A stretch of 64,000 nt of DNA, taken from Sinohyriopsis cumingii (Eukaryota > Mollusca > Bivalvia > Unionida > Unionidae). The translations under genes and the position numbers were made by a program. The notes under the pieces were generated by a model, which worked only from the letters and a program-made list of their open reading frames with translations, was not told the DNA's origin and did not search any database. Positions 4,735-57,700 of this stretch are shown in pieces. The DNA lies in the NCBI GenBank assembly GCA_028554795.2, contig CM068838.1, positions 92,400,974 through 92,464,973 of the forward strand. Reading direction: 5' to 3'. Numbering within the stretch: position 1 is the first letter of the stretch; every line of letters starts with the position of its first letter.

Positions 4735-5046
4735 CGCTCCAGTGGCCAAAGTTTTTAGAGCGATGCATGAAGTCATGGGTTCAAACTCCAGCCAAGTCAT
4801 ACCAAAGACTTATAAAAATGGTACTAGCAGCTGCCTCACCTGACGCTCAGCAATAAGAGGTTAGTGTTAGAACAGGGCAGCCTGGTGTCAGGATAATGTG
4901 ACTGGGTTGATCATCAAGCTACCTGTCTACGGCATGATACCACAGTGCTAGACATCACTGTAAACTGCCACAATGCAGATATCGTAGCGATATGACTGAA
5001 AATTTGTTAAAACTATGTTAAAAATCCAAATCACACACACACACAC
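4735..5046 (+). mobile_element. SINE family B, near full-length
   Basis: A degenerate tRNA-like head (CCAGTGGCCAAAG as box A region, GGGTTCAAACTCC as box B) leads into the common body (CATACCAAAGACTTATAAAA, then GTGTCAGGATAATGTGACTG). The tail is TTAAAAATCCAAATCACACA with (CA)n. The head indicates descent from a tRNA and RNA polymerase III transcription. It is not a functional tRNA gene. Confidence 0.8.
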
Positions 5047-5450
5047 TTTTGTGTATATGATATATTTAATGTGAAAAAATCTGACACTTATATTAGGAAA
5101 TCTTATAAACCCTGGTAAGCTCAGTGCTTTGGTATTCAGGAAATACATTTTCATTTCTAATATTTGTATTAAATCTGCTAAACATTGTGATAAAGCAATG
5201 TTATACACAACTGCAGCATATCACTTTCCTCCTGCTAAATAAAGTGTACTAGCTGCCAATGCTAAAAATGACAAAGGTCAGATAAGATGAAGGCAATGTA
5301 ACAGGAACAGTTGCAAAATGCAATGAATCCTCAGCACATGTGGCTTCGTAAAGAGAATAGTCATGTGGCATAGTTCAGAGTGGTCTAAATGCATGCAACG
5401 AGTCATTTTGTTGTGTCTTGAGCTCATACAAAAATTATAATTGCTAATAT
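5047..5450. other. Unassigned sequence
   Basis: AT-rich DNA between two SINE copies. I see no supported gene. Confidence 0.4.
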
Positions 5451-5486: not shown

Positions 5487-5696
5487 TCTCTGGTGGCCTA
5501 GTGGTTAGAACATCTGCCTTGGAAGCGGGAGGTCGTGGGTTCAAAAACTGACCAAGTCATACCAAAGACTTACAAAAATGGTACAAACTGCTGCCTCGCT
5601 AGGCACTCAGCATTAAGAGGTTAGTGTTAGGACTGGTCAGCCTGGTGTCAGGATAATGTGACTGGGTGGGACATCATGCTACATGTCTGCGTCATG
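5487..5696 (+). mobile_element. SINE family B, left part (interrupted by an insertion)
   Basis: It has a well preserved tRNA-like head (GGTGGCCTAGTGGTTAGAAC, then GTCGTGGGTTCAAA) and body up to CTACATGTCTGCGTCATG. The sequence then breaks off. The missing part of the family resumes at 6516 with GTCATGATGCCCCAGTGCTA. Confidence 0.85.
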
Positions 5697-6515
5697 GGTT
5701 TGGTCTCACCAGAGCACATCCCATTTGAGCGCTGTTCAGTGAGGCGCTAAAAAATTTCTTTTTCTCATTAGGGCTAATCCCATTACTAGAATGCATTCAC
5801 AATAGGGTGCGGAGAAAAAAATTAAGTTCAACAAGATTGAATTGCCATCATGTTTGATGTTATATATATATAATAATATGTACAAAAACAGCGGTAATTG
5901 TGATTAGAAAATAATTACTAGACAGAAACCAGAGAACCATCAATACACAATTTTATACAACTCTTATACCTTACACTGGTTTATCCTTTTTTGTACGCAA
6001 ATAAACAAGTAGATAAAAAATGTAATGCAAATTAAAATATATAAAGTGGTCATTCCTAGCACAAACACGATATTACATGAATAAAATAATATACATACAT
6101 ACATAACATAAACACAATACTGTAATAGACTGGTCCTTGGTCAAGATCACTATAATTTAGGGGCCATGATATAGAAACCAGTCGCAAGACTTAGTCTCTG
6201 AAGAAGGAAGTATATATCATAAAGAAATATACCGGGAAGGAAAACAAAGAGACCAGCTCCAGGGACAGTTTGAGTATGACACATTGTAAAATAATAAAAT
6301 GCAAAGATCAATGAGCAACCCATGAAAGAGAATAATAAATACTTGGTTTCTTCAAAATTCTTTTGACTTTTTCGCGCTCTAGTGATACTAGTTCTTTGCG
6401 CTCTAACGGGATGCGCCCTAATAAGATTAGCTCTAGTAGGACAAAAATATTTTTTGCGCTCTAGTGTGATAACCTCTAATGGTTTGCACTCTAATGAGAC
6501 GTTAGACGTTACCGT
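5697..6515. mobile_element. Non-autonomous long-inverted-repeat (foldback-like) transposon inside a SINE
   Basis: These 819 bp separate two halves of one SINE B copy and are bounded by a duplicated GTCATG (5691-5696 and 6516-6521). The outer 110-150 bp on each side are imperfect inverted repeats built from short subrepeats like CATTAGAGCGC and CACTAGAGCGC. On the left they run through about 5703-5820, on the right through about 6365-6505. No transposase is encoded. I cannot name the superfamily. Confidence 0.75.
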
Positions 6516-6616
6516 GTCATGATGCCCCAGTGCTAGACATCACAATAAACTGCCACAATGCAGACATCGTAGAGATATGACTGAAAAATTGTTAAAGCTA
6601 GGTTAAAAATCCTAAC

Positions 6617-6652
<36 letters not shown>

Positions 6653-6655: not shown

Positions 6656-6729
6656 ATTGTCCATGTGGCCCATGGCGCTTTATATGTTGGACTACCATGA
6701 TATTGTTGATCAATAAAAGCAACAGTCAT

Positions 6730-6957
6730 GCTGTTGTTGCTATGGCTTAACACCATTTTTCAGCACATGCTATACATGATGTACAGTAAAACTGCTGGAG
6801 GAAGAACCCTGAAAACCCCCTCATTCGAACCACTGATCAATGGCAAGCTTTCTCACATACCCATATAGACTGAGCCTGAGGCTCGAACCCATGCTGACAG
6901 CGGTGAGATGGCAGTTATCATTAAGGTGAGCACTTTAGACCACTAGACTTATGCCAT
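6730..6957 (-). mobile_element. SINE family A copy, diverged
   Basis: In reverse orientation it shows the family's GTTGTTG tail, CACCATTTTTCAGCACA, GGCAAGCTTTCTCACATACC, and a tRNA-Leu/Ser-like head with GAGGCTCGAACCCATGC (box B, reversed) and CTTTAGACCACTAGA (box A, reversed). Confidence 0.75.
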
Positions 6958-8815: not shown

Positions 8816-9068
8816 TGCAAAGAGCTACATGGGTGGCTGTAAACATCATGCAAAATTAAAGAAAACCTATTTATGACACTATATTCACATGATACAAGTC
8901 AAAACGGAACCAAAGAAATAGTTCTGATTAAATCAGTTATGTAGAGAGATAGATGATTACATTTTATCCAATACATGAGTTATTGCTTATAATAATCTTC
9001 TGAGTTTCTTGACTTCAAATATCTTTATACTCCACATTGCTAGCACATTAACTAACAGAAATACTTGA

Positions 9069-9245
9069 TCATAAGGTCCAACTGCAAACTCCTTAGATCT
9101 CATTCTTCCAACATAATGAACCAGCATATCTGTCTTTGTAGTTTGTTAGGAATATTCAGCAAAACAAACCACTTAGAGCCTGATCAACCAGTGCATTATG
9201 AGATGCAAGTAAGGGTCTATGTTGTTTGCAGTTGGAGCTGACTTA
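9069..9245. mobile_element. Palindromic interspersed element, copy 1
   Basis: It contains GGTCCAACTGCAAAC and CATAATGAACCAGCATATCT, then the opposite-sense GTGCATTATGAGATGC and GGGTCTATGTTGTTTGCAGT. The arms pair with each other. The same modules occur near 17.7, 19.4, 22.4, 41.6 and 57.6 kb. Its right end, GGAGCTGACTTATAAG, runs directly into the adjoining 33-bp array. Confidence 0.65.
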
Positions 9246-9463
9246 TAAGTGAGTATATATGGTAACATAGCTGACTTATAAGTGAGTATATATGGTAACA
9301 TAGCTGGCTTATAAGTGAGTATATATGGTAACATAGGTGGCTTATAAGTGAGTATATATGGTAACATAGCTGACTTATAAGTGAGTATATATGGTAACAT
9401 AGCTGACTTATAAGTGAGTATATATGGTAACATAGCTGGCTTATAAGTGAGTATATATGGTAA
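9235..9463. repeat. Minisatellite, 33-bp unit, 7 copies
   Basis: GCTGACTTATAAGTGAGTAT and the following ATATGGTAACATA repeat almost perfectly. The first unit is also the right end of the palindromic element before it. Confidence 0.93.
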
Positions 9464-9504
9464 CCCTGCTTAATCTGATAGTGCTTACTCTATATCCAAT
9501 ATTG

Positions 9505-10095
9505 CTTAGAATTGTAACTTGACACTACATCTAACTCTGGAGACACTGTGTCTCATTTGACACTATATCTAACTTTGGTGACACTGTATCTCATTTGACA
9601 CAATATCTAACTTTGGTGACACTGTATCTTATTTTTGTGACACTAGCTAACTTTACACTATATCTAACTTTGGTGACACTATCTCATTTGATATAATATC
9701 TAACTTTGCTGACACTATCTTATTTTTGTGACACTAGCTAACTTGACACTATATATAACTTTGGGGACACTGTATCTCATTTGAAACAATATCTAATTTT
9801 GCTGGCACTGTAACTTATTTTTGTGACACTAGCTAACTTGACATTATATCTAACTTTGGTGACACTGGATTTCATTTGACACTATATCTAACTTTGCTGA
9901 TGTCATATTTTATTTTGTGACACTAACAAACTTGACACTGTATTTAGCATTGGTGACACTGTATATAACACTGACGACACTGACAATGTATCTAACATTG
10001 GTGATACTGTATCTAACATTGGTAACACTGACACTGTATCTAAAATGGTGACACTGTTAACATTATTGATACTGTAACTTTGCTGACATGTATCT
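9505..10095. repeat. Degenerate minisatellite, about 38-bp unit
   Basis: Repeats of AACTTTGGTGACACTGTATC with ATTTGACACTATATCT. The spacing becomes irregular towards the right. Confidence 0.85.
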
Positions 10096-10261
10096 AATCT
10101 TGCAGTTGCTGTATTTTCTTTCTTCTACTACATCTTACGTAACTTACAGTTTAAGACTGAACTTTTTACAGTATTGTATCATAACCCTGCTTCTGCTGCA
10201 TTTTTCTGTTTTCTCTACTATAAAGCATTACTCAGCATTTCATGTATTACTTGATGTTACT

Positions 10262-10855
10262 CCAGTCTTGGAAATGTTACTGTCTATTGACCATTGCAGA
10301 TCAGTAAGGTTTGGTGTCAAGTACTGTCTATTGACCATTGCAGATCAGTAAGGTTTGGTGTCAAGTACTGTCTATTGAATATTGCAGATCAGTAAGGTTT
10401 GGTGTCAAGTACTGTCTATTGACTATTGCAGATCAGTAAGGCTTGGTGTCAAGTACTGTCTATTGACCATTGCAGATCGGTAAGGTTTGGTGTCGAGTAC
10501 TGTCTATTGACCATTGCAGATCAGGTATAGCAAGGTTTGGTGTCAAGTACTGTCTAATGACTTGGAAATGTTACTGTCTATTGACCATTGCAGGTCAGTT
10601 ATAGTAAGGTTTGGTGTCAAGTACTGTCTAATGACTTGGAAATGTTACTGTCTATTGACCATTGCAGGTCAGTTATAGTAAGGTTTGGTGTCAAGTACTG
10701 TCTAATGACTTAGAAATGTTACTGTCTATTGACCATTGCAGGTCAGTTATAGTAAGGTTTGGTGTCAAGTACTGTCTAATGACTTGGAAATGTTACTGTC
10801 TATTGACCACTGCAGATCAGTTATAGTAAGGTTTGGTGTCAAGTACTGTCTAATG
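10262..10855. repeat. Minisatellite with two unit lengths (44 bp, then 74 bp)
   Basis: The first part repeats TTGACCATTGCAGATCAGTA plus AGGTTTGGTGTCAAGTACTG about every 44 bp. From about 10550 an added TGACTTGGAAATGTTACTGT stretches the unit to 74 bp. Confidence 0.9.
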
Positions 10856-11119
10856 AACGAGGGACACAATCACACTAATCTTGCCTTCTTCCATTGTATA
10901 TATCCTTAATTATGTCTCCTGTATTTTTTCTACTTCAAGCAACATCAGTGCCTTAATTTTGCTTTCACTCTGAGTAGAGTAAATTACATCAGTGTTAATT
11001 AGCCCATATAAAAACTCATAATATATAAAATATAGCTGACTTCAACCACTGGATTGACCTTTTCACATTCCCACATACCATATTTAGTTATATAAAATTG
11101 GTTTGTAAAAAAAACTCAC

Positions 11120-12322
11120 CATTATTTGAAAGGACTGTAGCACTGTATTGATGGACTGCAGCAGATCGTGTTCTGTGGCAGCATGCTCAGAGGGAATAGG
11201 TGTAATTTCTATCATTTTCAATTCAACTTCACATGTTAAGTGACCTCTGTCTTTCAAGCCAGAAGTGTCACCAGGGCACTCATGTGAAATTACATTATCT
11301 AAGGAAGCCAATTTTGTGTTCCTTTGTGACAGGTCACTCTTGTTCTCCTCTATTTCTGTCGAATACTCACTCTCCTCTTTTAATTCATCTATGCTGTCAA
11401 AGGAAGCACTTTTCCTGACTAGAGCTAGGTCCTCAAATGTGTCATCAAAATCACTGCAAATCTTTTGAATTTCAGTCACATGGCTAAAGGATACACTCTT
11501 TTTGACAACTTTTCTTTTAGCAGTTAAAGTGGCACCAGTGCTCAAACAATTTTGTCCATTCTCTTCAATAACACCATCAAGGAGATCCAATGCATCCTCG
11601 ATGGCTGCCATGCCGTTAGGGGACATGGGCCTTTTATTGAGTGATGAGGGTGTTTCATTTGGTGACAAAGGTCTAGCATTTTGAGATAAAACCCTTGCCA
11701 TTGGAGACATGGACTGCCCACTGGGGGACATTGGTCGGCCATTCTGGAGCCCTGAGGGTCCATTTTTGGTGCCAAAGGAAATGTTAGCTGACCAGGAGTT
11801 AGCACTGACAGGTAAAGAAGAGACTTCCTTATAGTAATCCACAATTTTCTCACTGAATGTCACAGAGGGACTGAAGGGAGATGCATCTGAGATTTGGTTT
11901 GATAAAGAAATGGGGGACATCTTTTTCAGAATCCCTTTTGGTATCATATGGAAGTCTCCTTGACCTGGCGGAGAAGCATATCCACTGTCCACGCTAGAAT
12001 ATATTTCATGTGGCTGAAGTTTTAATTTCAATGGACGTGGCCCAAAGAGGGGCTCTACTGTATCTTCCTGTGCTAATGCAAATATCTTTTCATCATCAAT
12101 CTCCCTCCTCAACGGGACAAACAGATTGTCATCCACAACTAAAATCAGTTCCTTTTCATTTTGCATTTTTGCAGAAGAGTTTGGTAGTGGATGAACTCCA
12201 TTTACAAATTTGTTTTTTTTCTTGGCACTGTAAAACGGCTGTGACAGCTGTTTCATTAAGCTTGGTCTCTTCTTTTGCTTTACTTTCAATGATGAAAACT
12301 CCTTTTTCTTGGGCTTTGGCAT
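11120..12322 (-). CDS. First coding exon of an unrecognised basic, Ser/Pro-rich protein with PP1-docking-like motifs
   Basis: This is the only strong gene piece in the window. It holds 401 codons from ATG (12322) to a consensus donor, ATG|GTGAGT, at 11120/11119, leaving a phase-0 intron. An in-frame TAA at 12341-12343 supports the start. The protein opens with a lysine-rich segment (residues 1-38). KGILKK at 129-134 matches the [GS]IL[RK] SILK motif known from PP1 inhibitor-2. SVTF lies at 153-156. Residues 197-237 hold repeated Met/Leu-Ser-Pro sites. KKSVSF at 274-279 fits the PP1 RVxF motif. An acidic region follows (287-330). No enzymatic domain, signal peptide or membrane segment is visible. 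The rest of the gene must lie downstream (lower coordinates); no following exon was recognised in 1-11119. PP1 binding is inferred from short motifs only. An intracellular, probably nuclear or scaffold, role is a guess. Confidence 0.8.
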
Positions 12323-12340
12323 TTTTCTTTTTACGATTCC

Positions 12341-12346
12341 TTACAT
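12341..12346 (-). promoter_or_regulatory. Start-stop upstream ORF (ATGTAA)
   Basis: On the minus strand, ATG at 12346-12344 is followed at once by TAA. It lies in frame with and about 20 nt upstream of the main ATG. If this stretch is 5' UTR, the minimal uORF could lower translation of the 401-codon exon. Whether it is transcribed is not known from sequence. Confidence 0.4.
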
Positions 12347-15300
12347 ATGCCTCATTAAAAGCAAACAGAAAGCATTCTTTTACAAATTTAGGGAAATAAA
12401 AAAGTAATTGATATCAGAATAATCATTCAACTTCCTATATGGTCTTTGATTAGTTAGATTTAACTCCAGGAATATGCGAATAAATTAATTCCTTATCTTG
12501 TATTATTCATGAACCAACTGACAACAAAACACAACTCTGCAAATACTCTCTGATGATCAATATTGCGAATCTCCCATCAATTCCAAATAGAAGTCCATCG
12601 ATTCCAATAAAAGACCATCAATTCCAATAAAAGTCCAATGAAAACTTGCATTCTCTCCAGATAATTTCTTGATGAAATCATTAACAGAATCTGTTAAAAA
12701 GTCACTTGATAAAGTCATTGGTAATAAAGACTGAAAGGAATCTGTTTGTACTAGTTAACTGACACTTGTCAGTTTCTACCAGATGACCAACAGTAATAAG
12801 TAATAATATACATAACACACATCACTGACCACATGATTAGCTGCTCCATAAATGTCATTTAATCTGAGGAGTGAGGACAGTTATAGAAGAAGATACTACT
12901 TCTAGGGTACACAAAAACATATATTAAGGTCACCTTACAGGTCAGTGGGTGTTCACTGATGGACAGTTGTCTAACATGTTCAACATATACTAGTCTTTGT
13001 ACAGTACTACTCAATTGTAAGATTAACAAGTCTTGTGTAAGTATATATCTGACCACAGTTTTATCTATACAAATGTTCAGACATGCCATACATCAAACAA
13101 AGCATTATTTCTTCTTTCTATAATACGTCCTCGCTGTAATGATGACCATCAACACAGCCTTGTAACATTCTTGACGGTTTACCTCTTGCTGATGTAATTC
13201 CTCTTTATTTGTATATTTCCACAATAAAAAAACTACAATAATTATTTCACAAATATAAGTAGGCCAGGAATGTAAAGTATGAAAGACTGTTTGGTCTTAT
13301 TTTGCATATAAATACCTCATATTGGTATTGTGATTGATAATCCTCAATAAATACCTTGTATTAGCACACTGGCTGATAACCCTCTATAATCCATAGAGGA
13401 CTATTATCCAGTCCTTGTCATATCAATCAAATCAACAAGAGGAATCTTTAATGCTGAATTCCACATGGTACTTGTCTAGCACACAAATCCTTAAAATGAC
13501 GCTAATCCAAGGAATTTGTCCAAGATGGCCTACACACCGTTTATTTACAGAACAAGTCTAAAACTCATGGACTGTTTATAGAATATTGTTCCAAACAGAG
13601 TTGCTGACATATATAATAAGTAATAACTAGTTGTTCATTAGTCTAGTTTATCAATAGAACATAAACATGTTTTTGATGACAGGTAGATCTTCAACGATAA
13701 ATGCTTACTAAAATTCACCTGTATGTTTGGAGTCCTTTCAAAGCCATCCATCGAACAGTATCAGTTAACTTAACACAAAACCTGCATGTCTATCACCATA
13801 AATGTAAATTAAACATTCACAAAGGTAAGGCGTCTGTGGCTCCAATACTTCAATGCAAAGAGATCAGCCAAGCTTAGCCATTAAAAATCCCAACTGAAAT
13901 TCCATTGTAAAATCTGAAAATATTTTATAAACCACATCATGAAAGTGGAAGGTGCCCCTTGTATCGATATACCTTCCTTATGATAGTGCTTGACTAGCTA
14001 CACACTAAACTGACAGGTAGTTGATTGATTGAAATATTTCCTTCCGGCAAGAATCCATAGCTGATCATCCCATCAATATTGACTACATCATGACACTGAC
14101 TTTCCTATAGGTATATATTAACTACAGTTATACATGCAATTAAATCAATAATCTTGATACTATTTACATGGTCACAGTGCTTTCCAATAATTATAATTTT
14201 CATTTCAAATCTATAAGATATATATTAAAAAATCAGTCCAGCTGCTCTTTAACCTAGTCTTAAGTGCACACACTTTATAGAGATTCAAATCCTGAGTATA
14301 AAATGAAGTTATGTCACTGGATGAGTTTTCTGGAGATAAAAACAGCAGGTCAAAATAATAACAGTTCAATTAACATGTCAAAGTTTTGGTTTGCCATGAA
14401 CTTTAGCTGACATATTTACCATGGCCTGTAAGTATTTATCACTAGTTCAACACAGACGTGTACACAGACATGTACACAGGGATGTGTATTTTTGCCAGCA
14501 AGATTCTGTATGTTGTCCTTCCTCAGGAAATCAAGATCTCCTTCACCTGAGAGCTTACTAAAATAATCAACACTTCAAGTAAGCAGTTCAAGGAATAATC
14601 AAAAGGTGTGAAAATAATTCAAACTTTCATTGTTTTTTTACCTGTGTGAAAATTACAAGTAGTTAAACAGGTTATGCAAGGTGATAACTTGCACCTTTTT
14701 ATCTGGTAAGTGTACATTTCGCATAAGTATCATGTTCACGTTTGGTGACTTACAGTATCTGTTTTGAATGATCTCCACGATCCTAGAAATCTTCTTAAAA
14801 CCGTTATTTGAGCAAGGCAAATGCTACCAGTCCATAATGGGAAATTAATAATGCTATCACAGAAAAGAACAATCAGGTGTTTACATAACGTTACACCTAC
14901 ATTTGACAAAGTAGTGTTATGAGTGATAAGCAGTCACTAATTAGTACAAAGACATTATTATGTCATTCATTCAGAGGTTAAGAAGTACAGTACAGTGAGT
15001 CATTTTCATATGTTAACTTTTCATGCACCTCACTCAGGGGAAAATAAATCTTGCAAGCATGTCTAAAAATGATTGTGTCAATGCTTTTCAAATTCTTTTC
15101 ACTCCAAACTAATTAGCATGCCAAAATGTTGTTTTTCTAACAATCATTTTCATTGATAACTATGATGAACTCATGACTGCCATTGTCATGTCAAATGTCA
15201 TACCCGTGAGTAAAAAATATAAAAAAAATAATTTTTCTCCAAATTCACTATTAGCTGTAGTTGTGTTCCCATTAGTAATGATTCAGTCCAAAATGGAGGT

Positions 15301-15500
15301 TGGAAACAGCCTGTGAACAATCACATGTAATCCATTGCTGCACTTAACAAATTGTACAGATGAAATCACCTCCCTTAATGTCCATACCTGGAAGGGTGGT
15401 ATCAGATATTTAACCAAAGCTTTACGCTGAACAATCTGTGAGGCTTTTCATTCCCACTTTTCCCTTCCAGTAAATAAAATAAAACCTTGGGGGTATCCCA
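12347..15500. other. Mostly unique DNA upstream of the minus-strand exon
   Basis: About 3 kb without large repeats. It would hold the 5' UTR and promoter of the exon at 11120-12322, but I cannot place a TATA box or start site. A three-copy 24-bp repeat (CATCAATTCCAATAAAAG-like) sits at about 12574-12640. Confidence 0.4.
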
Positions 15501-16590
15501 TTATGCTCCACTCCATTGACAATTATTATATATCAAAATGATGTATGCTCTTGTCTTGTTCAACAACTCACTGAGTCATGGGCAATTGTTAGATCTATCT
15601 ATACACTGGAAAAACTTGCTATATCTCACCAACAACCTCAACCTTCCCCACCAATTTTGTAAGCATATGTCTATTTCACAAAGCCTTATGTCTCCTCCTA
15701 AAACGGTCAAACCTCAGTTCACACGGAACAAAAGATGTTCCAGTAAATCAGCTGTTAAAAGCCTATCAGATCTCCAATATGTTAAATTATTAAACACACG
15801 TGTGAAGCATATTACCATCACACTAATGTATCGTAAATTTATTTTTCTCTTTTCTTTGTATTATAGCAGAATTAAAGGAAAGGTGTTCATTGTCATTAGA
15901 AATCTAGTGAATTGTGAACAGCATGTATTAAAATATTTACATAGGTCAATTTACTGAAGAACTTATAACAGCTATCTTAGATACTAAGCTGAAAGGGAAG
16001 TTGTTGTAATAGATTATGTTTAGCACTAATGCTCTGGAAATTCAACGCAAAATAGTCTATTATCAAGGCAACTTCAAATCATTAGACAGAAAATTATGCA
16101 AAACCGAAGACATTTACAAACTTTAAGCTATTGTTATCAATGTACAGAGGTAAGAACATGTATACTGCTAAATCGTGATCACACAAGCATGTACTTTTTA
16201 AAGTTTGATCAAAGTCAAATGAGAAGTAATCCATCCAGAGTGGTACCAGATGACTAAGCAGACTGAACTTGTACAAAATCTTGATGATATAAGACCATGT
16301 TCCAAGTCTGATTCAAGCTGGATCAGAAAGTATGACCTCTAGAATGGTTGCAATTGTTGAAAGATGACACAGGATGCAGAATGGAAACGGTGCCATATAC
16401 GGTGTGCTCACTTGGTCTTACAACCCCAGGTTAAGAAAATCTCATCCTAAATTGCAAACTCTGACTGAATTTTACATAAAGTCCAAGTAACTTCATGTCA
16501 TGTTACGGTTGTGCCCATATCAACAAAACAGTGACCCTTGACATTTCTCACTTCAAAGTATTCTGTACTCTATTCACACAGTCATCTTCA
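15501..16590. other. Unassigned non-coding sequence
   Basis: It includes a 139-codon plus-strand frame (15538-15957) with no recognisable family, no splice support and ordinary AT-rich composition. I do not call it a gene. Confidence 0.35.
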
Positions 16591-16605
16591 GCTTACTTTA
16601 ATATG

Positions 16606-16761
16606 TTGTTGTTGTTGTTGTGGAGTTTAACGCCATTTTTCAGCACACCCCAGGAAGAACCACTGACCCACAAGAAGCTACTGGCAAGCTTTCTCACATA
16701 CGCACATTGGCAGAATCCTAGACTCGAACCCGCTTTAGACCACTTGGCCACTTGGGGCCCA
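16606..16761 (-). mobile_element. SINE family A copy with internal deletions and 12-bp target duplication
   Basis: Reverse-oriented: a (TTG)n tail, TTTAACGCCATTTTTCAGCA, a shortened body, GCAAGCTTTCTCACATACGC, ACTCGAACCCG and TAGACCACTTGGCCAC. It is flanked by a perfect TACTTTAATATG duplication at 16594-16605 and 16762-16773. Parts of the body are missing compared with copies at 18651 and 21110. Confidence 0.88.
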
Positions 16762-16904
16762 TACTTTAATATGAAAAACTTCTGCATATAATTCATTTGA
16801 GTATATGTCTAGTTTGAACTCAGTTCCTGTTGTTACATTTATGCCCATAGTGACAAAACTAGTTCAGTGACCACCAACATTTCTCATCTTAAAGTGTGTG
16901 CATG

Positions 16905-17168
16905 TGTTTGATGATTTGGATTTTTAACATAGCTTTAACTTCTTTTTTTTGCTATATCACTATGATGTCTGCAGTGTGGCAGTTTATAGTGCTGTCTAGA
17001 ACTGGGGCATCATGCCGCAGACATGTAGCATGATGTCTCACCCAGTCACATTGTTCTGACACCAGGCCAACCAGTCCTAACACTAACCTCTTAATGACTC
17101 GGCTGGGGTTCAAAAACCTGCAACCTCCCATATTCGAGGTGGATGCTCTAACCAGTAGGCCACCTGAG
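16905..17168 (-). mobile_element. SINE family B copy with internal deletion
   Basis: It shows a GGATTTTTAACATAGCTTTA tail, the CATCATGCCGCAGACATGTA block and ACACCAGGCC. A gap after CCTCTTAATG removes the ATGGTAC block. The head follows, with GGGTTCAAAAACCTGC and CTAACCAGTAGGCCAC. Confidence 0.85.
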
Positions 17169-17640
17169 TGCTTATGTGTAGCATGTTAAATTCACAGTAG
17201 GAAAATGTATTAAATCACATACAAAAATCAGACATCCTCCAGTAATAACAAGAGCACATTTCAAACAACTTTGGCATGCAGGTTTACTTGACTTGACAAG
17301 CATATTAATTTGTCTTTATTTAGTTCATAAGATCATGGATGACTTCCCTTTATACTTTTTTCAAACACATGGACAACAGCCGATTTGGATGGAATAGTAA
17401 ATGTGCAGTGAAGCAATGGCAATAATGGGAAAAATGATCTCACAGTTGGCCTTAAATTTAATGGCCCGTGAAACTACCACACTGGGAGTTTGAAGAAGTT
17501 CTTCTTTCCAAATCATTGAGTTAATTTGTGCTGGAAGAGAAGTGCCATTTGAATAATGACAGTTTGAACAAGCTAGCCATCATCCTTTAAAACGTAAATT
17601 TAAAATGCAGGAAATGTTAATGTACCATAAATACTTGTGA
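17169..17640. other. Unassigned non-coding sequence
   Basis: No supported gene or repeat. Confidence 0.35.
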
Positions 17641-17649
17641 ACAACTTAA

Positions 17650-17832
17650 AGCTTAATCCAAACTGTATAGACCCAGATGTCTCTGCATGATGCACTTGCA
17701 GGTACAGGTCTTTGCAGTTTGTTGGCAGAAATCAATAGAATAAACAAAATAGACCCCAATAATGCTGGCACATTATGCAATCTGGGTCTATGTTGCTTGC
17801 AGTTGGACCAAAATTTCAAACAAGAATATATG
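17650..17832. mobile_element. Palindromic interspersed element, copy 2
   Basis: TAGACCCAGAT at 17668-17678 is the exact inverse of ATCTGGGTCTA at 17780-17790. The outer arms AAACTGTATAG and CTATGTTGCTTGCAGTTGG are related to other copies. GCTGGCACATTATGCA matches the copy at 19.4 kb. The right end leads directly into the 19-bp array. Confidence 0.7.
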
Positions 17833-18190
17833 GTACTTAACATGTCATATGGTACATAACATGCTATATGGTACATAATATGTCATATGGTACATATCAT
17901 GTCATAAGTTACATAACATGTCATATGGTACATAACATGTCATATGGTACATAACATGTCATATGGCATATAACATGTCATATGGTACATAACATGTCAT
18001 ATGGTACATGTCATATGGCACATAACATCTCATATGGTACATAACATGTCATATGGTACATAACATGTCTTATGGTACATAACATGTCATATGGCACATA
18101 ACATCTCATATGGTACATAACATGTCATATGGTACATAACATGTCATATGGTACATAACATGTCTTATGGTACATAACATGTCATATGAG
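17828..18190. repeat. Minisatellite, 19-bp unit, about 18 copies
   Basis: The unit ATGGTACATAACATGTCAT contains the palindrome ACATGT and, at unit junctions, CATATG. Confidence 0.93.
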
Positions 18191-18638
18191 CTGAAGTCAA
18201 GTTTGTTTTAAAGGCAGTGTATGCACTTAAATTGAATGAACCTGTAATTCATCACAACTTAATAGTCATTCTTGTACCTTGTGTAGGTTCATATCTTCTG
18301 AACTCACTGCAGCAAAAGTAATGTTTAACCCTCTGCATGCCAAATTTGTATAAACCTATCAATGTGGCCTTTGGTTCAGCATATGTGGATAGCTGTCATG
18401 TTACAATATATCACTAAGCATAACATTTTGATAAATTTAGTGTCAAACAAATTTTTCCATCAATATTATTTTTATTAAAATTTTGTGGTTAAAAGTTCAT
18501 TGTTACTGTAAGCATAATTTTGATTCCTGGTAGATCAGTAATTCCCAAAAATTTGGTATATCTATCTTTGCTTAATTTTGATAATGCAACAATATTGCAA
18601 TTTACAATACCTACCAATAATCAACAGTAACCTCATCT
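18191..18638. other. Unassigned sequence with a TTAACCCTCTGCATGCC element end
   Basis: TTAACCCTCTGCATGCC near 18327 resembles one end of a piggyBac-type element, but no matching right end is visible. Otherwise nothing is supported. Confidence 0.3.
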
Positions 18639-18650
18639 ACACCTATTTTG

Positions 18651-18901
18651 CGGGGGGACCTGAGTGGCCGAGTGGTCTAAAGCGCTCTCCGTTACGGATC
18701 ACTGTCATTTTACCTCTGTCTGCGTGGGTTTGAGTCTCAGATTCAGCCAATGTGGGTATGTGAGAAAGCTTCCCAGTAGCTTCTCGTGGGTCAGTGGTTC
18801 TTTCCAGGGTTTTCCCAGGTTCTTCCTCCACCATTAATACTGGCCGCCATATATAGCCTATCATGTGCTGAAAAATGGCGTTAAACCCTACAACAACAAC
18901 A
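18651..18901 (+). mobile_element. SINE family A, full-length, perfect 12-bp target duplication
   Basis: The tRNA-Leu/Ser-like head has box A in TGGCCGAGTGGTCTAAAGCG and box B in GCGTGGGTTTGAGTC, separated by a long variable region. The body includes CAATGTGGGTATGTGAGAAA and CCTCCACCATTAATACTGG. It ends TGAAAAATGGCGTTAAACCC and (AAC)n. ACACCTATTTTG flanks both sides (18639-18650, 18902-18913), which argues for a fairly recent LINE-mediated insertion. Confidence 0.93.
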
Positions 18902-18913
18902 ACACCTATTTTG

Positions 18914-19340
18914 TCTGAATTTCATGCTCACTGAGTTTGCATTGAAGCCCAAAATACAATAAATTCATTCCTACTGCTGATATATCTTCTTCTTGTGCTT
19001 TTCACTACTGCCATCAGACTACAGGTTTCAGCATCACAAACATAAGAGATGTCATCAATTCATTTAAACAACATGAGGTGATTACAACCCCAACCAGGTT
19101 GAGAACCAATGAGATCTTAAGAAAATAAACTGTCGCTTAATAAACAAGGTAATTTTATTTACTAGTTTTTTTTCTTCTTCAAATCTCTGTAGATCATGTA
19201 ATAATTATACAGCTCAATGATGATCCCATGTTATGATTTGGTGATCAAAGAACTCACGCTGACAAACTGTAAACAACATGTCACTTATTACACAACCTGA
19301 ACTTGCTGCATGCAGATTTTCTTTTGAATTACCATTTGAT
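18914..19340. other. Unassigned non-coding sequence
   Basis: Nothing supported. Confidence 0.35.
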
Positions 19341-19343
19341 TGA

Positions 19344-19605
19344 TGTTAACATCAAAGACCTTGATTCTGGGGGCAAACAAAGCACACCCAGATAGAAGTA
19401 GTCTACTATTATACAATCTATACTCACTTCTAGTTCAATGGCAAGCCACCGTGACCCTGTTCTGCTGTTGTGATGGCAGATCAGGATCTATGTTGTTTGT
19501 TCTACTGGTTTCTCCAAACACATTGCATAGACCCAAATCTGCTGGCACATTATGTGATGGGAGATCTATGTTCAGTTTGCAGTTGGACTATACTTATGTG
19601 CAGGT
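19344..19605. mobile_element. Palindromic interspersed element, copy 3
   Basis: It carries GCAGATCAGGATCTATGTTG, GCATAGACCCAAATCTGCTG, GCTGGCACATTATGTGATGG and CAGTTTGCAGTTGGAC, the modules of the other copies. A tandem array begins about 200 bp to the right. Confidence 0.6.
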
Positions 19606-19802
19606 AAATATCATGAAACAATTTATTTTTTGGAGTCTTTTGAGAAAAGTAGGGAGCTATAATTTACTTAAGTTATTGATGATTGTGTGGACTGTTGGTA
19701 TTATCAACCTATGAGATCTTGTTGAACATAAAACTTACAGGAAATTTTGTTTGAAATCCTATGGAGATATGATCACTAATCATTCTGCCAAAATGAAAAT
19801 GC

Positions 19803-20378
19803 CATGAACTGATGGTGGTACTGTACTGTACTCATAGACTGATGGAGGTACTTATTGTACTCATCATGGATTGATGGAGATAATGTACTGTATTCACATC
19901 ATGGATTGATGGAGATAATGTACTGTATTCACATCATGGATTGATGGAGATACTGTACTGTACTCATATCATGGATTGATGGAGGTATGTACTGTACTCA
20001 TATCATGGATTGATGGAGGTATGTACTGTACTCATATCATGAATTGATGGAGATAATGTACTGTATTCACATCATGGATTGATGGAGATACTGTACTGTA
20101 CTCATATCATGGATTGATGGAGGTATGTACTGTACTCATATCATGAATTGATGGAGATAATGTACTGTATTCACATCATGGATTCATGAAGGTACTGTAC
20201 CGTACTCACTTCATGGATTGATGGAGGTACTGTACTATACTAATATCATGGACTGATTGAGGTACTGTATGACACATCATGGACTGATTGAGGTACTGTA
20301 TGACACATCATGGACTGATGGAGGTACTGTATGACACATCATGGACTGATGGAGGTACTGTATGACACATCATGGACT
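19803..20378. repeat. Minisatellite, about 35-bp unit, about 16 copies
   Basis: Units contain CATGGATTGATGGAGATAAT and a GTACTGTA core. The last four copies form a distinct subtype with GTACTGTATGACACATCATG. Confidence 0.9.
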
Positions 20379-20756
20379 GTATGTATTGCAGGACAAAGCA
20401 AGAACTACATACCCTTACCATTGTCATGGTGGGCATAGCAAGCAATAATTTAATTAGATTATAATAAATGAAAGATGCCTGGATTAAAGATGAGTGAACA
20501 GATGGACAGAGGAAAAATATATCCCTTCTTTCTTTCCTTTTCTTGGACTGACAAGAAAATATACATACTGTCCTGGGTAAGGACAGAATAATGTGTGCAC
20601 TTTTATTGAGGCTGACTGTATCAAATTTGTGAAAAACTAAAACAATTGAATTTTACGGGAAAATTATGAAACTGACTTTGCAAATTTTTTAAAAACATTT
20701 TTAAACATAGATCTTTAAAATAAAAAAATTATACAAACAATAAAAATAGTAACAAC
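20379..20756. other. Unassigned AT-rich sequence
   Basis: Nothing supported. Confidence 0.35.
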
Positions 20757-20875
20757 ATCAATAATAATAACAATAATAATAATAATAATAATTATAATAA
20801 CAAACTTTACTGAGAGAAGACTAAATTTTAGTCAGCAAACCAATCTTTTGCACAAAGCCTTCTATAATAACATGT
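20757..20875 (-). mobile_element. LINE 3' tail, reverse orientation
   Basis: On the minus strand it reads AGAAGGC, GATTGGTT, ACTAAAATTTAGTCTTCTCT, then TAAAGTTTG and (TTA)n. The order and wording match the tails at 1005-1109 and 51945-52157. It is 5' truncated. Confidence 0.55.
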
Positions 20876-20966
20876 ATATATCTGCATATTTTACAAGTTG
20901 TGGTGTCTTTAGACAGCAATGTTATTCTAAAAACTAGACAACAGACTGTATCATTATAAAAGATGT

Positions 20967-21512
20967 ACAAGGCAATTCAGATTAGCAGATACAGGACTGA
21001 TACAAATATCTGCAGTGTACCTATACAAGGCAATACAGATGAGTACAAACAGGACTGATACAAAAATCAGCAGTGTCCCTGTACAAGGCAATTCAGATTA
21101 GAAGATACACATGGGGCCCCGAGTGGCCGAGTGGTCTAAAGCACTCTTCGTTACTGATCACTTCCATCTCACCTCTGTCTGCGCTTGTTCAAGTCTCAGA
21201 TTCAGCCAATGTGGGTACGTGAGAAAGCTTGCCAGTAGCTTCTCATGGGTCAGTGGTTCTTTCCGAGGTTTTCCTGGGTTCTTCCTCCACCATTAATACT
21301 GGCCGCCATGTATAGCCTATTGTGTGCAGAAAAATGGCATTAAACCCCACAACAACAACAACAACAACATTAGCAGATACAGGACTGATACAAATATCTG
21401 CAGTGTACCCATACAAGGAAATACAGATGAGTAGGTACAGGATTGATATAAAAGTCTGCAGTGTACCTGAAAAGGCAATACAGATGAGTACATACAGGAT
21501 TGATATACAGTA
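20967..21512. repeat. Minisatellite, about 58-bp unit, about 5 copies, split by a SINE
   Basis: Units with TACAAGGCAATACAGATGAG and CAGGACTGATACAAATATCT lie on both sides of the SINE at 21110-21368. Confidence 0.85.
21110..21368 (+). mobile_element. SINE family A, full-length, inserted in a minisatellite
   Basis: Same layout as the copy at 18651: GAGTGGCCGAGTGGTCTAAA, GTTCAAGTCTCAG, GAGAAAGCTTGCCAGTAGC, ACTGGCCGCCATGTATAGCC and (AAC)n. The flanks ATTAGAAGATACA (21097-21109) and ATTAGCAGATACA (21369-21381) form a 12/13 target duplication within the array unit. Confidence 0.92.
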
Positions 21513-22320
21513 CATGAAAGTACATAGTTTACACCAAATATATCATTGTTTCTGTCATTGTTGATGAAGATACTTCTTAAAACCATTTGATGAGCCATAT
21601 GTTAGATGCATGGGATTACCAGTCTGCCTACAGAAGAAAAACCAAAGTCTTCTTATAAAATTCAGAAGTTTGTTTACCCTCCCCCCAATACATGCGTTTT
21701 CAGTGGGCTGACCTTCCATGTTTCTCAGTGATGATCATAGCACTTTTCCCCCCATGGTTAATAACAACCAAAAAGAATAAACATACAAAAAATAATGAAA
21801 ACAAAAAAAAATCAACAAATGGATCGCATTAAAAATATGTAATGTTCTGAGAAGAAAAAGAAGACCCATCTACACAAATTTGAAAAGCAGTACAATGGGA
21901 AACAGATATCGGGGGGAATTTTTGTTTGTGATGATACAACTTTTACAATTTTGCCATTCTTTATTCTTGTGTGCATCTACAATGAGTAAAGTAAGAGATT
22001 TATTTCTTTTCTATAATAATTTATTTAATTAGCTTAACTCCATTTTAAATGAATCAATTTTTGAAGACACTGGAAGAAGAAACAAAAAGCTAATATATCT
22101 TGTTGTTTGTGATTTATCTTACCACATACATGTGTACATTTTCCACAAATTTGACATTACTTGTAAGATCATTCATGAATTGACCTGAGTAAGGGTTTGT
22201 ACTCAAATAACCCCTTTTTAAAGTAGAGTTCTCAAGTGATGGATTTGCCACCTCATGAAAATGTATGACTACATCCATCTCAGTTGCCTAAAGTACCATC
22301 TGTATTGGCCTATAAGTCAT
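21513..22320. other. Unassigned AT-rich sequence
   Basis: No supported gene or repeat. Confidence 0.35.
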
Positions 22321-22324
22321 GTCC

Positions 22325-22520
22325 AACTCCAAACAACATAGATCCTGATTTGCCATCACATCATGTTTTGGTAGATGAGAATCAGTGTTGTTTGTTTTAC
22401 TGATTAATCCCAACAAATTGCAATGACTCAGACCTACCAGCACCTTATGCAAAGGCATATCTGGGTCTGTAGAGTCTGCACATGGAGCTGACTTACAAAC
22501 AAGTACAGATGGTATCTTGA
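22325..22520. mobile_element. Palindromic interspersed element, copy 4
   Basis: CCAACTCCAAACAACATAGA, then GAATCAGTGTTGTTTGTTTT, then ACCAGCACCTTATGC and CATATCTGGGTCTG. It ends GGAGCTGACTTACAAACAAG, very like the right end of the copy at 9.2 kb. The 52-bp array starts at once. Confidence 0.65.
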
Positions 22521-22524
22521 GGAG

Positions 22525-23255
22525 TTTGAATGTAAGTCTTTGGTCAACAAATCTTGTCCTTATTTTTGATGAATAGCTTGATTATAAGTCTATGGTTAAC
22601 AAATCATGTCCTTATTTTTTATGAATATCTTGAATATAAGTCTATGGTTAACAAATCTTGTCCTTATTTTTGATGAATAGCTTGATTATAAGTCTATGGT
22701 TAACAAATCATGTCCTTATTTTTTATGAATATCTTGAATATAAGTCTATGGTTAACAAATCTTGTCCTTATTTTTGATGAATAGCTTGATTATAAATCTG
22801 TGGTTAACAAATCATGTCCTTATTTATGACGAATAACTCGAATATAAGTCTATGGTTAACAAATCATGTCCTTATTTATGACGAATAACTCGAATATAAG
22901 TCTATGGTTAACAAATCTTGTCCTTATTTTTGATGAATAGCTTGATTATAAATCTGTGGTTAACAAATCATGTCCTTATTTATGACGAATAACTCGAATA
23001 TAGGTCTATGGTTAACAAATCATGTCCTTATTTTTGATGAATAGCTTGAATATAAGTCTATGGTTAACAAATCTTGTCCTTATTTTGATGAATAGCTTGA
23101 AAATAAGTCTATGAGTAACAAATCATGACCTTATTTTTGATGAATAGCTTGAATATAAGTCTATGAGTAACAAATCATGTCCTTATTTTTGATGAATAGC
23201 TTGAATATAAGTCTATGATTAACAAATTATGTCCTTATTTATAATAAGTAGCTGT
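22525..23255. repeat. Minisatellite, 52-bp unit, with 104-bp dimer phase
   Basis: TCTATGGTTAACAAATC recurs every 52 bp. TTGATTATAA recurs at 22578, 22682 and 22786, spaced 104 bp, alternating with TTGAATATAA. Part of the array is therefore a dimeric higher-order repeat. Confidence 0.9.
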
Positions 23256-26390: not shown

Positions 26391-26421
<31 letters not shown>

Positions 26422-26602
26422 GGATTTTTAATGTAGCTTAAACATAGCATCACTGACCAGCCCTAACTCTAACTTTTAAAACCAAGTGCCAGGCAAGACA
26501 GCTGCAGGTACCATTTTTTTAAAAAGTCGGCCAGGGTTTGAACCTGTGACCTCCCGCATCCAAAGCGGACGCACTAACCACTAGGCCACTGGAGCAGCCT
26601 AT
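26391..26602 (-). mobile_element. SINE family B copy, large internal deletion
   Basis: A (GT)n run at 26391-26418, GGATTTTTAATGTAGCTTAA, then a direct jump to GACCAGCCCTAACTCTAAC. The head is good: GGGTTTGAACCTGTGACCTC and CTAACCACTAGGCCACTGG. Confidence 0.85.
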
Positions 26603-36187: not shown

Positions 36188-36345
36188 TCAGTCCGGTGTC
36201 CTAGTCAGGTTAGAGTGTCTGCCTCGGATGCAGTAAGCTGTGGTTTCGAACCCTGGCTGAGTCATAGCAAAGACATAAAAATGGTATTAACAGCTGTCTT
36301 GCTTGGCTACGTTAAAAATCCAAATCACTCACACTCACCCACTCT
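36188..36345 (+). mobile_element. SINE family B, large internal deletion
   Basis: The head has AGGTTAGAGTGTCTGCC and GTTTCGAACCCTGG. The body is CATAGCAAAGACATAAAAATGG, then a jump to the tail TTAAAAATCCAAATCACTCA. Confidence 0.85.
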
Positions 36346-36935: not shown

Positions 36936-37190
36936 TGTGTGTGCGTCTGTGTGTGTGTATGTGTGTGTGATTTAGATTTTTAATCTAGATTATCAAAAAA
37001 TTCAGTCATAGCACTACAATGTTGGCAGTGTAGCAGTTTATTGTGATCTCTAAGCACTGGAGCATCATGCTGCAGAAGCATGATGTCCCAGTCACATTAT
37101 CATGACACCAGGCCGACCAGTCCTAACACTAACCTCATAATGCTGAGTGCTAGTTAGGCAGCTGTTAGTACCATTTTTATAAGTCTTGGT
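36936..37190 (-). mobile_element. SINE family B copy, head truncated
   Basis: A (GT)n run, GATTTAGATTTTTAATCTAG, the GCATCATGCTGCAGAAGCAT block, ACACCAGGCCGACCAGTCCT and GTTAGTACCATTTTTATAAG. No tRNA-like head. Confidence 0.85.
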
Positions 37191-37894
37191 CATGACCCTC
37201 TATCATGTACTGAAATAATGCTGAAACATTCTTTTTAACAACATGATAAAAGATCAAATTTTCTCAGTATTTAATTAGCAACTTAAATGTATCACTGCCC
37301 ATCACAATTTCCATATCTTTTGCCATCCACAGCAGTAGCAATGTGATGACATTAACTGGCCAATTATGAGAAGCCTACCATGGATATTCAAAACCTTTGT
37401 AAATTTCTGACTGACCCTACCATGAAATTATACTTCAGACAATAAACCCTCAGAGGGACTAATTCTCTACCATGAAATTATACTTAGACAATAGTCCCTC
37501 AGAAGGACTAATTCTCTACCTGCAGTAAAGACTTTGTAGGAATCCTAGATTGGCCTGTTTCTTATTTTCAACTGCAGCATATTGAAACCATATCTAACAT
37601 TCTTGAGAAACTCCAGGATACCAAATTAGGAATAAAAAAATATTTTCTTACATCCAAGTTAACATGTTTATATGATACCTCACTGTCCATTTAAAAATTG
37701 TTTTGTCTGAACTTGGACCAATGTTTATGGTTTAGACCATGTCAATTAGCTATTACTACATGCTATGTTTTATTCAATCTGTAAGTGACATTTCTGGAGA
37801 CAAAAATGTATTATCATTCAAGTTATTCTTCAGATATGTCCATAAACTTAGTTAAACCATTCAATACTTATGATATCATGATCACATGCCAATA
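37191..37894. other. Unassigned sequence with a two-copy tandem repeat
   Basis: ACCATGAAATTATACTT recurs at about 37419 and 37470 with GGACTAATTCTCTACC. Otherwise nothing. Confidence 0.4.
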
Positions 37895-38072: not shown

Positions 38073-38942
38073 CATAAATGAAACCAGGACTCCAGACATT
38101 TAATTTTAAATTTAATGTCCAGGTTTTATCGACTTGTTCACTGAAAAGCAACTAAATACAAAATGTGGTCAAAATTAACTTGTATATGTAAAAATCACTG
38201 CTCAACCAAAGTCCAAGTATATGGTGGTTTAGGTCTGGAAAGTGCAAGCAATCAGTTCTGACTTGACCACAAGGTAAATTAGGTCTAGATTTTGAAACTC
38301 CTTCACAAATGTAACGTCTTGTTACTTTTGGGATCTGCACCATTTACACTCAAAACCAATTAAATATTGCACAATGCAATGAAAATCCACATCAATACCA
38401 CCACTGATGTAAGAAGAGAAGCAATAACAAGATTTTCAGGATGGCCACATTTGTTTTTGCCATTTTGGAGGTCTGACTAGTACCATTTTTGATTAATGGA
38501 AGAACGAAATATATTTGCAATAGGTGCATCACAATGTGTCCAGTTCACTACAATGTGATTGGCAGGGCCATAAAAAGTGAAGCAAGTGGGAAACAAAATC
38601 ATGAGAACAGGCATTAGAGGTCATAAAATCAATTTATCACTGGTTAAGTTATGGTGTGAAAACCAACCAGGAACCTTGTAAATACTACGAAACACTGGCA
38701 ACTGAAATCATTTTAAATCACATCAGAACAGGTATAAAGCCACACACAAATCTGGTTGAATAGCCATTATTTGGAAACATTATGGAATCTAAAGTCACAA
38801 GGATGGGTATTCAGGGGGCACAACTCCTGTAAATAATGTTGTGGTCTACTCAAAATCAAACTCCATCTTGGTCTCATCCATATAAAGCAACAAAGTTAAG
38901 TTCAGCTGAAATTCAATGAACTGTCATAAATTTGCACCTGTA
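38073..38942. other. Unassigned non-coding sequence
   Basis: Nothing supported. A 63-codon minus frame at 38152-38343 is not convincing. Confidence 0.35.
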
Positions 38943-39040
38943 ATAGATATCACTATAAACTGTCACACTCCAGACATCATAGCAATATGACTAAAATTGT
39001 TAAAGCAATGTTAAAAATCCCACAATATACACACATTACT
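38943..39040 (+). mobile_element. SINE family B, 3' fragment
   Basis: ATCACTATAAACTGTCACAC, GCAATATGACTAAAATTGTT and GTTAAAAATCCCACA with a short CA tail match the last third of the family. Confidence 0.75.
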
Positions 39041-41008: not shown

Positions 41009-41555
41009 ATGAGTATTATATGTTATCAAAGTGAACAGGTGGTTACCAAAGTGCATTTCCATTAGTTATGCCATGTGAAAATATATAACTTTGGTGATGA
41101 AAACAAACTCCATTTAAACTCCATGCCATTTGCTACAATCTATCATTTGCATGACATTCTGGGGAAACATTCTTTGTAGAACTGTTACTGAATGACTTTG
41201 ATATGGGGAATACATTCTCAGTAGATTTGTTACTGAATGGTTGCACTTTGGTATTATATTATTGAAGATTTTTTACTGAATGACTCTGAGAGATGGCAAT
41301 TTACTGTGAATGCTACCAGACAACTCTTGACTCTTCATAAAAATCCTCATCCATCAGATTTGTTTGTAAAAAATTAGGAAATCTTGCAGGGTCACAGTCC
41401 AATCTTGACAAAATAAATTCTACAGGCTTAAATAGATAAACTTTGAGATATGGTGTCAGGTTTCATGTTAAGGGCTCATCTACATTACTGTATTTGGTAC
41501 CACTATTAACTGTGTATTGACTTTGTTCATTAGTGTAAAATTCCCAAAGAACTGT
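41009..41555. other. Unassigned non-coding sequence
   Basis: Weak direct repeats (GTTACTGAATGA). No gene. Confidence 0.35.
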
Positions 41556-41559
41556 AAGC

Positions 41560-42005
41560 ATCATTCACCCAGATTTGTGACTGCATTTAGCACTGGCAGA
41601 TCAGAAGCTACGTACCTCTTTTAAAATTTCAAGCAGAATTCCAACAGGATAGACCCTGGATCTCAGTCTGCATTTTCCACTGGCCTATCAGATCCAATGT
41701 ACTCCTCTTAAAATTCCAATCAAAACAAACAGCATAGACCCAGATCTGTCATTGCACTGTGCACTGGTATATAAGCATCTATGTGCTACTCTTGAAATCA
41801 CAAGAAGAACAAACAACATTGACCCTGATATGCCATCACAATTTTATACTGGCAGATCCATGTCTGTGTGCTCTTCAAATCCCAAGCTGAACAAACAACA
41901 TAGACCCTAAACTGACATTGCAATTATTATGGCCAGATCAAGGTCTATATGCCTCTCTTAAACTGTAAAGTAGAACAAAGCAGATAGATCATGTTCTGCC
42001 TTTGC
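41560..42005. repeat. Palindromic element, tandem form (copy 5), about 85-bp unit, 5 copies
   Basis: AACAAACAACATAGACCCTA, CATAGACCCAGATCTGTCAT and GGCAGATC-type inverse text recur. These are the same modules as the dispersed palindromic copies, here repeated head to tail. Confidence 0.65.
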
Positions 42006-57545: not shown

Positions 57546-57547
57546 TA

Positions 57548-57700
57548 CAAGTTGGATCAAACTGCAAACTGCATAGACACAGATCTGCTGTCACATAATG
57601 TACCAGCATGTCTAGGTCAATGCAATTTGCTTAGATTAGTAAGAAGAGCAAAGAGCATCAAGGTCTCTGTTTTCAGCTGGACCCAACTTGTATGGAGTCT
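57548..57700. mobile_element. Palindromic interspersed element, copy 6
   Basis: TTGGATCAAACTGCAAACTG, CATAGACACAGATCTGCTGT, CATAATGTACCAGCATGTCT and AGCTGGACCCAACTTG share modules with the other copies. Unlike most, it has no array at its right edge. Confidence 0.6.

Follow-up and report, generated by a model that had tools for sequence, protein, structure and literature searches.

A probable foldback-like element in a 64-kb window of the Sinohyriopsis cumingii genome whose arm sequence makes up two adjoining minisatellites

A 64-kb window of the Sinohyriopsis cumingii genome (assembly GCA_028554795.2, contig CM068838.1), on which all results reported here rest, contains a short dispersed palindromic element together with numerous minisatellites. 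Five dispersed copies of the element lie near 9.1, 17.7, 19.4, 22.4 and 57.6 kb, and two of the arrays that adjoin them, beginning at positions 9236 and 17828, are built of the element's own arm sequence. It is this homology between array unit and arm, and not the placement of arrays beside copies, that carries the claim developed below, and it does so for these two arrays. The features of the window are compiled in Table 1.

An earlier note on this stretch, made from the sequence alone, had described palindromic modules at six places and had taken a core motif, GCTGGCACATTATG, as their common mark. Searched on its own, the motif proved a poor guide to the family: it gave 11 matches at up to three mismatches against 6.7 expected, a count reached in 8 of 100 shuffles, and was exact only at 17764 and 19541. 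Because this search did not clearly outdo shuffles, a profile of the module was used instead, which detected palindromic modules at all six named places (E-values from 3.6e-19 to 3.3e-10 for the best 15 matches). The profile was trained on 13 module sequences that are themselves among its matches, and for that reason comparison of the window with itself by BLAST serves as the independent support for the modules. Copies 1, 2 and 4 each contain a plus-strand module followed by a minus-strand one, facing each other head to head across a spacer. Identity over aligned columns is 69-84% for the ten pairs that the five dispersed copies form. The copy 1 modules reach E-values of 2.7e-12 and 2.5e-17 and its left arm 3.2e-06; in copy 5, the module reaches 3.6e-19 and the arms 6.1e-08 and 2.2e-05, in each case with profiles trained on these sequences. 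An inverted repeat in copy 1 pairs 9074-9097 with 9216-9239 at 83%, and the inner arms within copy 1, like those within copy 5, are inverted with 83% identity over 24 nucleotides.

The sixth place, near 41.6 kb, differs from a two-module copy in being a direct tandem run. The profile matches at 41550, 41643, 41724, 41804 and 41888 (E-values of 3.3e-10 or lower) and at 41973 (0.0039), with the plus strand best for each, and 41581-41922 aligns with 41668-42006 at 70% in the self-comparison; Tandem Repeats Finder (TRF), by which arrays were called, did not report this run. A further piece at 58908-58970 is probably a seventh, degraded copy. Its profile E-values on the two strands (0.18 and 0.22) fall short of the inclusion threshold; when it was compared with the five copies in both directions, three of the ten comparisons beat all 200 shuffles, two had 1 and 3 shuffles as good, and five had 7 to 57.

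Table 1. Repeats and other features of the 64-kb window (window positions).
Feature	Position	Strand	Description
Copy 1	9048-9236	+	Left arm 9048-9076 (weak); modules 9077-9151 (+) and 9162-9236 (-)
Minisatellite at copy 1	9236-9464	+	33-bp unit, 6.9 copies; 97% matches (TRF)
Copy 2	17616-17846	+	Left arm 17616-17655; modules 17656-17725 (+) and 17739-17807 (-); right arm to 17846
Minisatellite at copy 2	17828-18188	+	19-bp unit ATATGGTACATAACATGTC, the last 19 bp of the right arm; 19 copies
Copy 3, rearranged	19373-19621	-	Modules 19440-19503 and 19514-19587 in one direction; partial module 19374-19393
35-bp minisatellite	19803-20376		216 bp from copy 3; without similarity to the element arms
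Copy 4	22287-22522	-	Both outer arms present; reversed relative to copies 1 and 2
52-bp minisatellite	22526-23240		Begins about 4 bp outside the copy 4 arm; unit not demonstrably from the element
Tandem module run	41550-42013	+	Roughly six diverged palindromic modules, directly repeated, with starts 80-93 bp apart
Copy 5	57528-57701	+	No array
45-bp minisatellite	58334-58907		Abuts the degraded piece; end set by eye (58940 in TRF)
Degraded seventh piece (probable copy)	58908-58970		Fragment of one module with the inner arm box, bordering the 45-bp array
Five-copy dispersed repeat	18654-18904, 21113-21369, 63248-63498, 6729-6944, 16604-16763		72-95% alike in matched pieces
Arrays flanking a dispersed repeat	20966-21098, 21377-21507		Units of about 58 bp
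Second dispersed repeat, 11 pieces	1353-1612, 4769-5049, 5489-5696, 6514-6640, 16890-17170, 26394-26600, 36192-36307, 36970-37196, 38933-39038, 42693-43017, 52634-52953		tRNA-like match at 26530-26589 in one piece; two pieces with a short CA/TG array directly at one end
Open reading frame	11084-12340	-	418 codons

The element extends past the GCAGTTGGA box into outer arms of about 30-40 bp, which are inverted on the two sides of copies 2 and 4 and whose sequence, read by eye, is about ACTTATAAACAAGTATATATGGTACTTTAACAT. Arm matches were judged against 300 and again against 1000 shuffles. The two arms align over 28 columns in copy 2 and over 34 columns in copy 4, with no shuffle as good in either set; those of copy 5 share 10 bp, equalled by 4 of 300 and 10 of 1000 shuffles; and in copy 3 an outer arm is present weakly and on the right side only. 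Between copies, the right arms of copies 1 and 4 match over 27 columns (no shuffle as good in either set), in keeping with the terminal sequence that the earlier note saw in both copies, and those of copies 2 and 4 likewise exceed all 1000 shuffles; the right arm of copy 1 matches the left arms of copies 4 and 2 with 1 and 3 of 1000 shuffles as good, and the left arms of copies 1 and 2 match with 6. Altogether, in 8 of the 36 pairs among nine arms, no more than 10 of 1000 shuffles equal the match, and a profile of the nine arms matches those arms and three units of the 9-kb array at an E-value of 0.001. The outer arm is thus firm for both sides of copies 2 and 4 and for the right side of copy 1, and weak or lost elsewhere.

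The arms within a copy are more alike at 17611-17846 and 22276-22522 (scores of 35.5 and 34) than any two arms of different copies (27 at best), the corresponding scores in copies 1 and 5 being only 14.5 and 20. This greater likeness within copies 2 and 4 hints at correction between arms or at subfamilies.

Outer arms that are inverted, as expected of the terminal inverted repeats (TIRs) of a miniature inverted-repeat transposable element (MITE) or foldback element, are found in copies 2, 4 and 5, and not in copy 1. Five open frames of at least 90 amino acids overlap copies 1, 3, 4 and 5. Four are without a Pfam match, and the frame that runs through the 9-kb array gives four matches with E-values of 0.003-0.05, all below the curated cut-offs. 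Inverted arms, dispersal and the lack of recognizable coding sequence fit a non-autonomous element of the foldback or MITE type. The element was not found in the published literature by term searches. Among viral contigs, nine carried a 16-base match, and BLAST with four copies returned two weak matches (15 and 37 columns; E-values 0.03-0.04), which we took as chance; a second pattern in the same scan had no match.

With regard to orientation, whole-copy and spacer alignments place the copies at 9, 17 and 57 kb in one direction and those at 22 and 19 kb in the other. Between the 17- and 19-kb copies, the whole-copy alignment hardly discriminates (105.8 forward, 103.9 reverse), and the direction was settled by the spacer (14 versus 40); between the 17- and 57-kb copies, it is the spacer that scores alike both ways, and the direction was taken from the whole copy (71.6 versus 63.9). 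The arrays at 9 and 17 kb therefore lie at one end of the element and the 22-kb array at the opposite end, so that the earlier proposal of a preferred right end fails. On the right side as read in the window, the distance from the core to the next array is 0 bp at 9236, 21 bp at 17828, 40 bp at 22526 and 216 bp at 19803.

The main evidence comes from the arrays adjoining copies 1 and 2. In the 9-kb array, the first unit directly after GCAGTTGG is the whole 33-bp right outer arm itself, which bears out the suggestion that this unit begins with element sequence. At 17 kb, the first unit lies within a stretch that recurs inverted in the left flank, where the 19-bp unit occurs once, and the array ends in a partial unit, ATATG, identical to the first 5 bp of the unit. 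Three copies had been said to end directly in arrays; the arrays are real, and those at 9236 and 17828 begin inside the outer arm. The fourth array, lying near copy 3, was located as described. The unit lengths (33, 19 and 52 bp at 9236, 17828 and 22526) are those given before, and the phases of the 9- and 17-kb arrays differ as well.

To compare the arrays on one scale, six arms without an array were used as the reference against 38 of the 39 merged TRF arrays with a period of at least 10. Among these 38, the top place goes to array 9236, the second to 17828 and the third to 58334, with 22526 eighth and 19803 twenty-second; the nine best of 8464 windows (scores of 121.0-125.5) all lie in the first two arrays or their arms. 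An earlier per-row test, which covered 79 rows with periods of 12-100, the best 30 being listed and one row with an undefined z-score taking a place in the ordering, puts the same two arrays on top with 2 of 100 shuffles each; the ranking against array-free arms repeats its question without this flaw. An arm origin was also considered for the array at 58334 and dropped, its junction being no better than shuffles (377 of 500 reach the summed score). The sliding control of that junction test was partly circular, since some of the arms used are array units, a circularity that the array-free-arm ranking avoids. The array at 19803-20376 is probably unrelated to the element. In arrays 9236 and 17828, the unit is homologous to the terminal repeat, as in TIR-derived satellites of the Tetris and Xstir kind.

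The units are 97%, 94% and 90% identical at 9, 17 and 22 kb (the first 6, 12 chosen and the first 10 units, respectively), compared with 69-84% for the element copies. Since units are more alike than copies, amplification or homogenization would be younger than the spread of the element.

We consider it fairly probable, at about two chances in three, that an old non-autonomous foldback- or MITE-like element is present here and that tandem amplification of its arm occurred in situ, as separate events at 9 and 17 kb. The element would measure about 230 bp and comprise two palindromic modules of about 75 bp head to head, a short spacer and inverted outer arms of about 30-40 bp; it would have spread by transposition and then decayed. 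After insertion, and independently in each copy, a stretch of the arm would have been duplicated in tandem and then expanded, namely the whole 33-bp arm at 9 kb and the final 19 bp of the arm at 17 kb; in the run at 41.5 kb, tandem multiplication may have acted on the inner module itself. The differing units and phases and the un-amplified opposite arms fit independent amplification in place after insertion, and the left arm of copy 2, with its single-copy 19-bp unit and no array, is what the pre-array state would look like. The idea of independent amplification from an element end, put forward in the earlier note, thus stands for two arrays and is not shown for the one at 22526.

The putative engine would be fork stalling or slippage at the hairpin-forming palindrome, followed by re-alignment on short direct repeats and then by unequal exchange, and amplification would not require a transposase to take an active part. 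Slippage and unequal exchange between repeats of 5-10 bp have been reviewed for minisatellites born in mobile elements (PMC6947457), and the terminal ATATG of the 17-kb array fits what slippage between 5-bp direct repeats would leave. In single-strand folding, none of 60 shuffles does as well as the copies at 17, 22, 57 or 58 kb, and one does as well as that at 9 kb; in a separate fold of a shorter stretch at 22 kb, 2 of 200 shuffles were as good.

Several observations weigh against this reading. The outer arm is well supported only in copies 2 and 4 and on the right of copy 1, because the remaining arms fail: in copy 1, the left and right arms show no likeness above shuffles (277 of 1000 as good), the right arm of copy 3 exceeds shuffles against none of the eight others, and the copy 5 arms have no significant match to arms of other copies. 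Only two of the four adjoining arrays (9236 and 17828) are shown to be made of element sequence, and the margin of the ranking is small, the next-best window elsewhere scoring 119.5. The ends of the 9- and 22-kb arrays carry no 5-bp partial unit like that at 17 kb, and the young look of the units could also stem from gene conversion within arrays. Eight tip pairings yielded no target-site duplication and share no word beyond chance, the exact outer ends being uncertain; for this reason, transposition is inferred from dispersal and inverted ends. The 19- and 41-kb copies fold no better than shuffles (17 and 43 of 60), and copy 5, which folds well, lacks an array, so that hairpin strength does not predict arrays and is at most permissive. 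Finally, the window is rich in minisatellites, its 39 merged arrays covering 16,558 of 64,000 bases, and 35 of the 39 have no element copy within 50 bp.

An alternative is that the arrays were already inside the element when it transposed, as tandem repeats internal to foldback arms, and were later varied by unequal exchange. Such an architecture exists in Tetris, whose arms are described as combining a flanking domain and an inner domain with tandem repeats that have 37 bp in common with the flanking one (PMC4079207), and the units at 9236 and 17828 do derive from the arm, as this explanation expects. It does not account for the differences in unit length and phase between copies 1 and 2, for the absence of an array from the opposite arm of each copy and from both arms of copy 5, or for the arm profile's lack of matches past the arrays. 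We therefore regard it as unlikely.

A second alternative, that the element merely lies near arrays by chance or target preference in an array-rich genome, bears on the adjacency itself. Of the 12 ends of six copies, 3 have an array within 50 bp, compared with a mean of 0.50 for random positions (P = 0.012; 0.0022 for the better side alone), and the excess is not significant at 20 bp (P = 0.21) or 200 bp (P = 0.25). Array adjacency beyond shuffled positions, which the earlier note had proposed checking across the genome, is significant within the window at 50 bp and not at the other two distances. With seven copies, the count is 4 of 14 ends (mean 0.59, P = 0.0026), the seventh copy and its array end having been set after being seen. 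The ends of repeats resembling short interspersed nuclear elements (SINEs), placed by hand from self-BLAST, served as a control, and 4 of 32 lie within 50 bp of an array. The element's 4 of 14 is not significantly higher (Fisher 0.18; 0.09 by copies, 4 of 7 versus 3 of 16). Two of the SINE-end cases are short CA/TG arrays, and the other two are the two sides of one SINE-like repeat within an array.

That repeat, at 21113-21369, belongs to the five-copy family of Table 1, which we take to resemble mollusc SINEs derived from transfer RNA (tRNA). The units of the two arrays flanking it match, with no shuffle of 200 as good, and for this reason the repeat is taken to have inserted into an array that was already there. 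The order at 21 kb, array first, is the reverse of that inferred at 9 and 17 kb, and it gives the chance explanation an example of insertion into a pre-existing array. Chance may hold for the arrays at 22526, 58334 and 19803. It cannot account for the 9- and 17-kb arrays built of the element's own arm, and the permutation results at 50 bp also speak against it, so that we judge it highly improbable. Adjacency alone is modest evidence, moderately above chance and not significantly above SINE ends.

The least likely of the alternatives is the link suggested in the earlier note, in which the element would be of the Helitron or Helentron type (HINE, pearl), with a satellite-like array and the palindrome as one flank. 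Oyster HINEs have central tandem arrays, a right-flank palindrome and no target-site duplications (PMC7492417), and none were found here either. HINEs also keep a right flank of about 60 bp after the array (PMC7492417); here, none of the ten pairs formed by five post-array flanks match at the reporting threshold of at most 4 of 200 shuffles, the arrays compared having different units and two not being shown to derive from the element. Across the 45 comparisons of sequence past arrays, three were reached by 2-3 of 200 shuffles, against about 0.9 expected, and none was between two post-array flanks. Further points against a Helitron are the 22-kb array at the end opposite to those at 9 and 17 kb, an array that may not belong to the element, and the inverted arms, which in copies 2 and 4 flank the palindrome directly. 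The flank and orientation tests are not decisive, because a 2025 review notes that arrays of oyster Helitrons can have the element on a single side and can differ in direction (PMC12628747). A Helitron or pearl affiliation is not supported.

The remaining features of the window lie apart from the element. Rfam gave one tRNA-like match, just over the gathering threshold, in the second dispersed repeat; ARAGORN with the bacterial code found no genes, and Pfam had no match in nine open reading frames outside the element. The 418-codon frame is among those without a Pfam match, its best PDB match is not significant (E-value 0.38), and it is perhaps an exon of a host gene.

If amplification in place is accepted for arrays 9236 and 17828, an un-amplified arm (copy 2 left), an arm-length array and an arm-tip array of one element occur within 10 kb, and the step from mobile-element end to minisatellite would be directly readable in this locus. 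If genome-wide copies agree, one could measure the frequency with which transposon ends give rise to tandem arrays and the bases from which these start. A bolder extension, which we hold only tentatively and consider doubtful, is that the outer arm is a recurrent genome-wide nucleation site, either arm being turned into a new array with its own unit, and that this one decaying family supplies a sizeable share of the minisatellites in which the genome is unusually rich.

Growth of a tandem repeat from an element tip is already described in flies and frogs, and one paper lists Tetris and Xmix/Xstir as satellites derived from TIRs (PMC9659126). The closest precedent is Tetris/TIR-220 of Drosophila virilis, which like the present element is non-autonomous, has inverted arms, and carries repeats whose probable source is a part of the arm and which can grow into longer arrays (PMC4079207). 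Tetris has arms of up to 1735 bp, 220-bp repeats between outer and inner domains and target duplications of 8-10 bp, according to that report, whereas here the arms total about 60-75 bp, units of 19-33 bp lie at the arm tip and no target duplication was found. In Xenopus, the Xmix MITE and Xstir likewise combine a MITE with tandem repeats derived from it, and MITE, array and MITE-plus-array forms coexist (PMC9659126, PMC12628747). Unlike the arm origin here, Xstir repeats may come from internal MITE sequence, and the mechanism reported is excision of a loop between two nearby elements (PMC12628747). The pearl and Cg_HINE elements of bivalves share short length, a palindrome and an attached satellite-like array; they are described with a central array, conserved flanks on both sides, constant orientation and subterminal repeats of 11-12 bp (PMC7492417), and in contrast to Cg_HINE, a conserved second flank and a constant array end were not seen here. 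A microsatellite in the left flank and insertion at TT are further marks of the Helentron-type group. The module run at 41.5 kb recalls, by description only, the CMITEs of Acropora corals, MITEs able to form tandem arrays, whose proliferation is tied to piggyBac-like transposons (PMC2872659).

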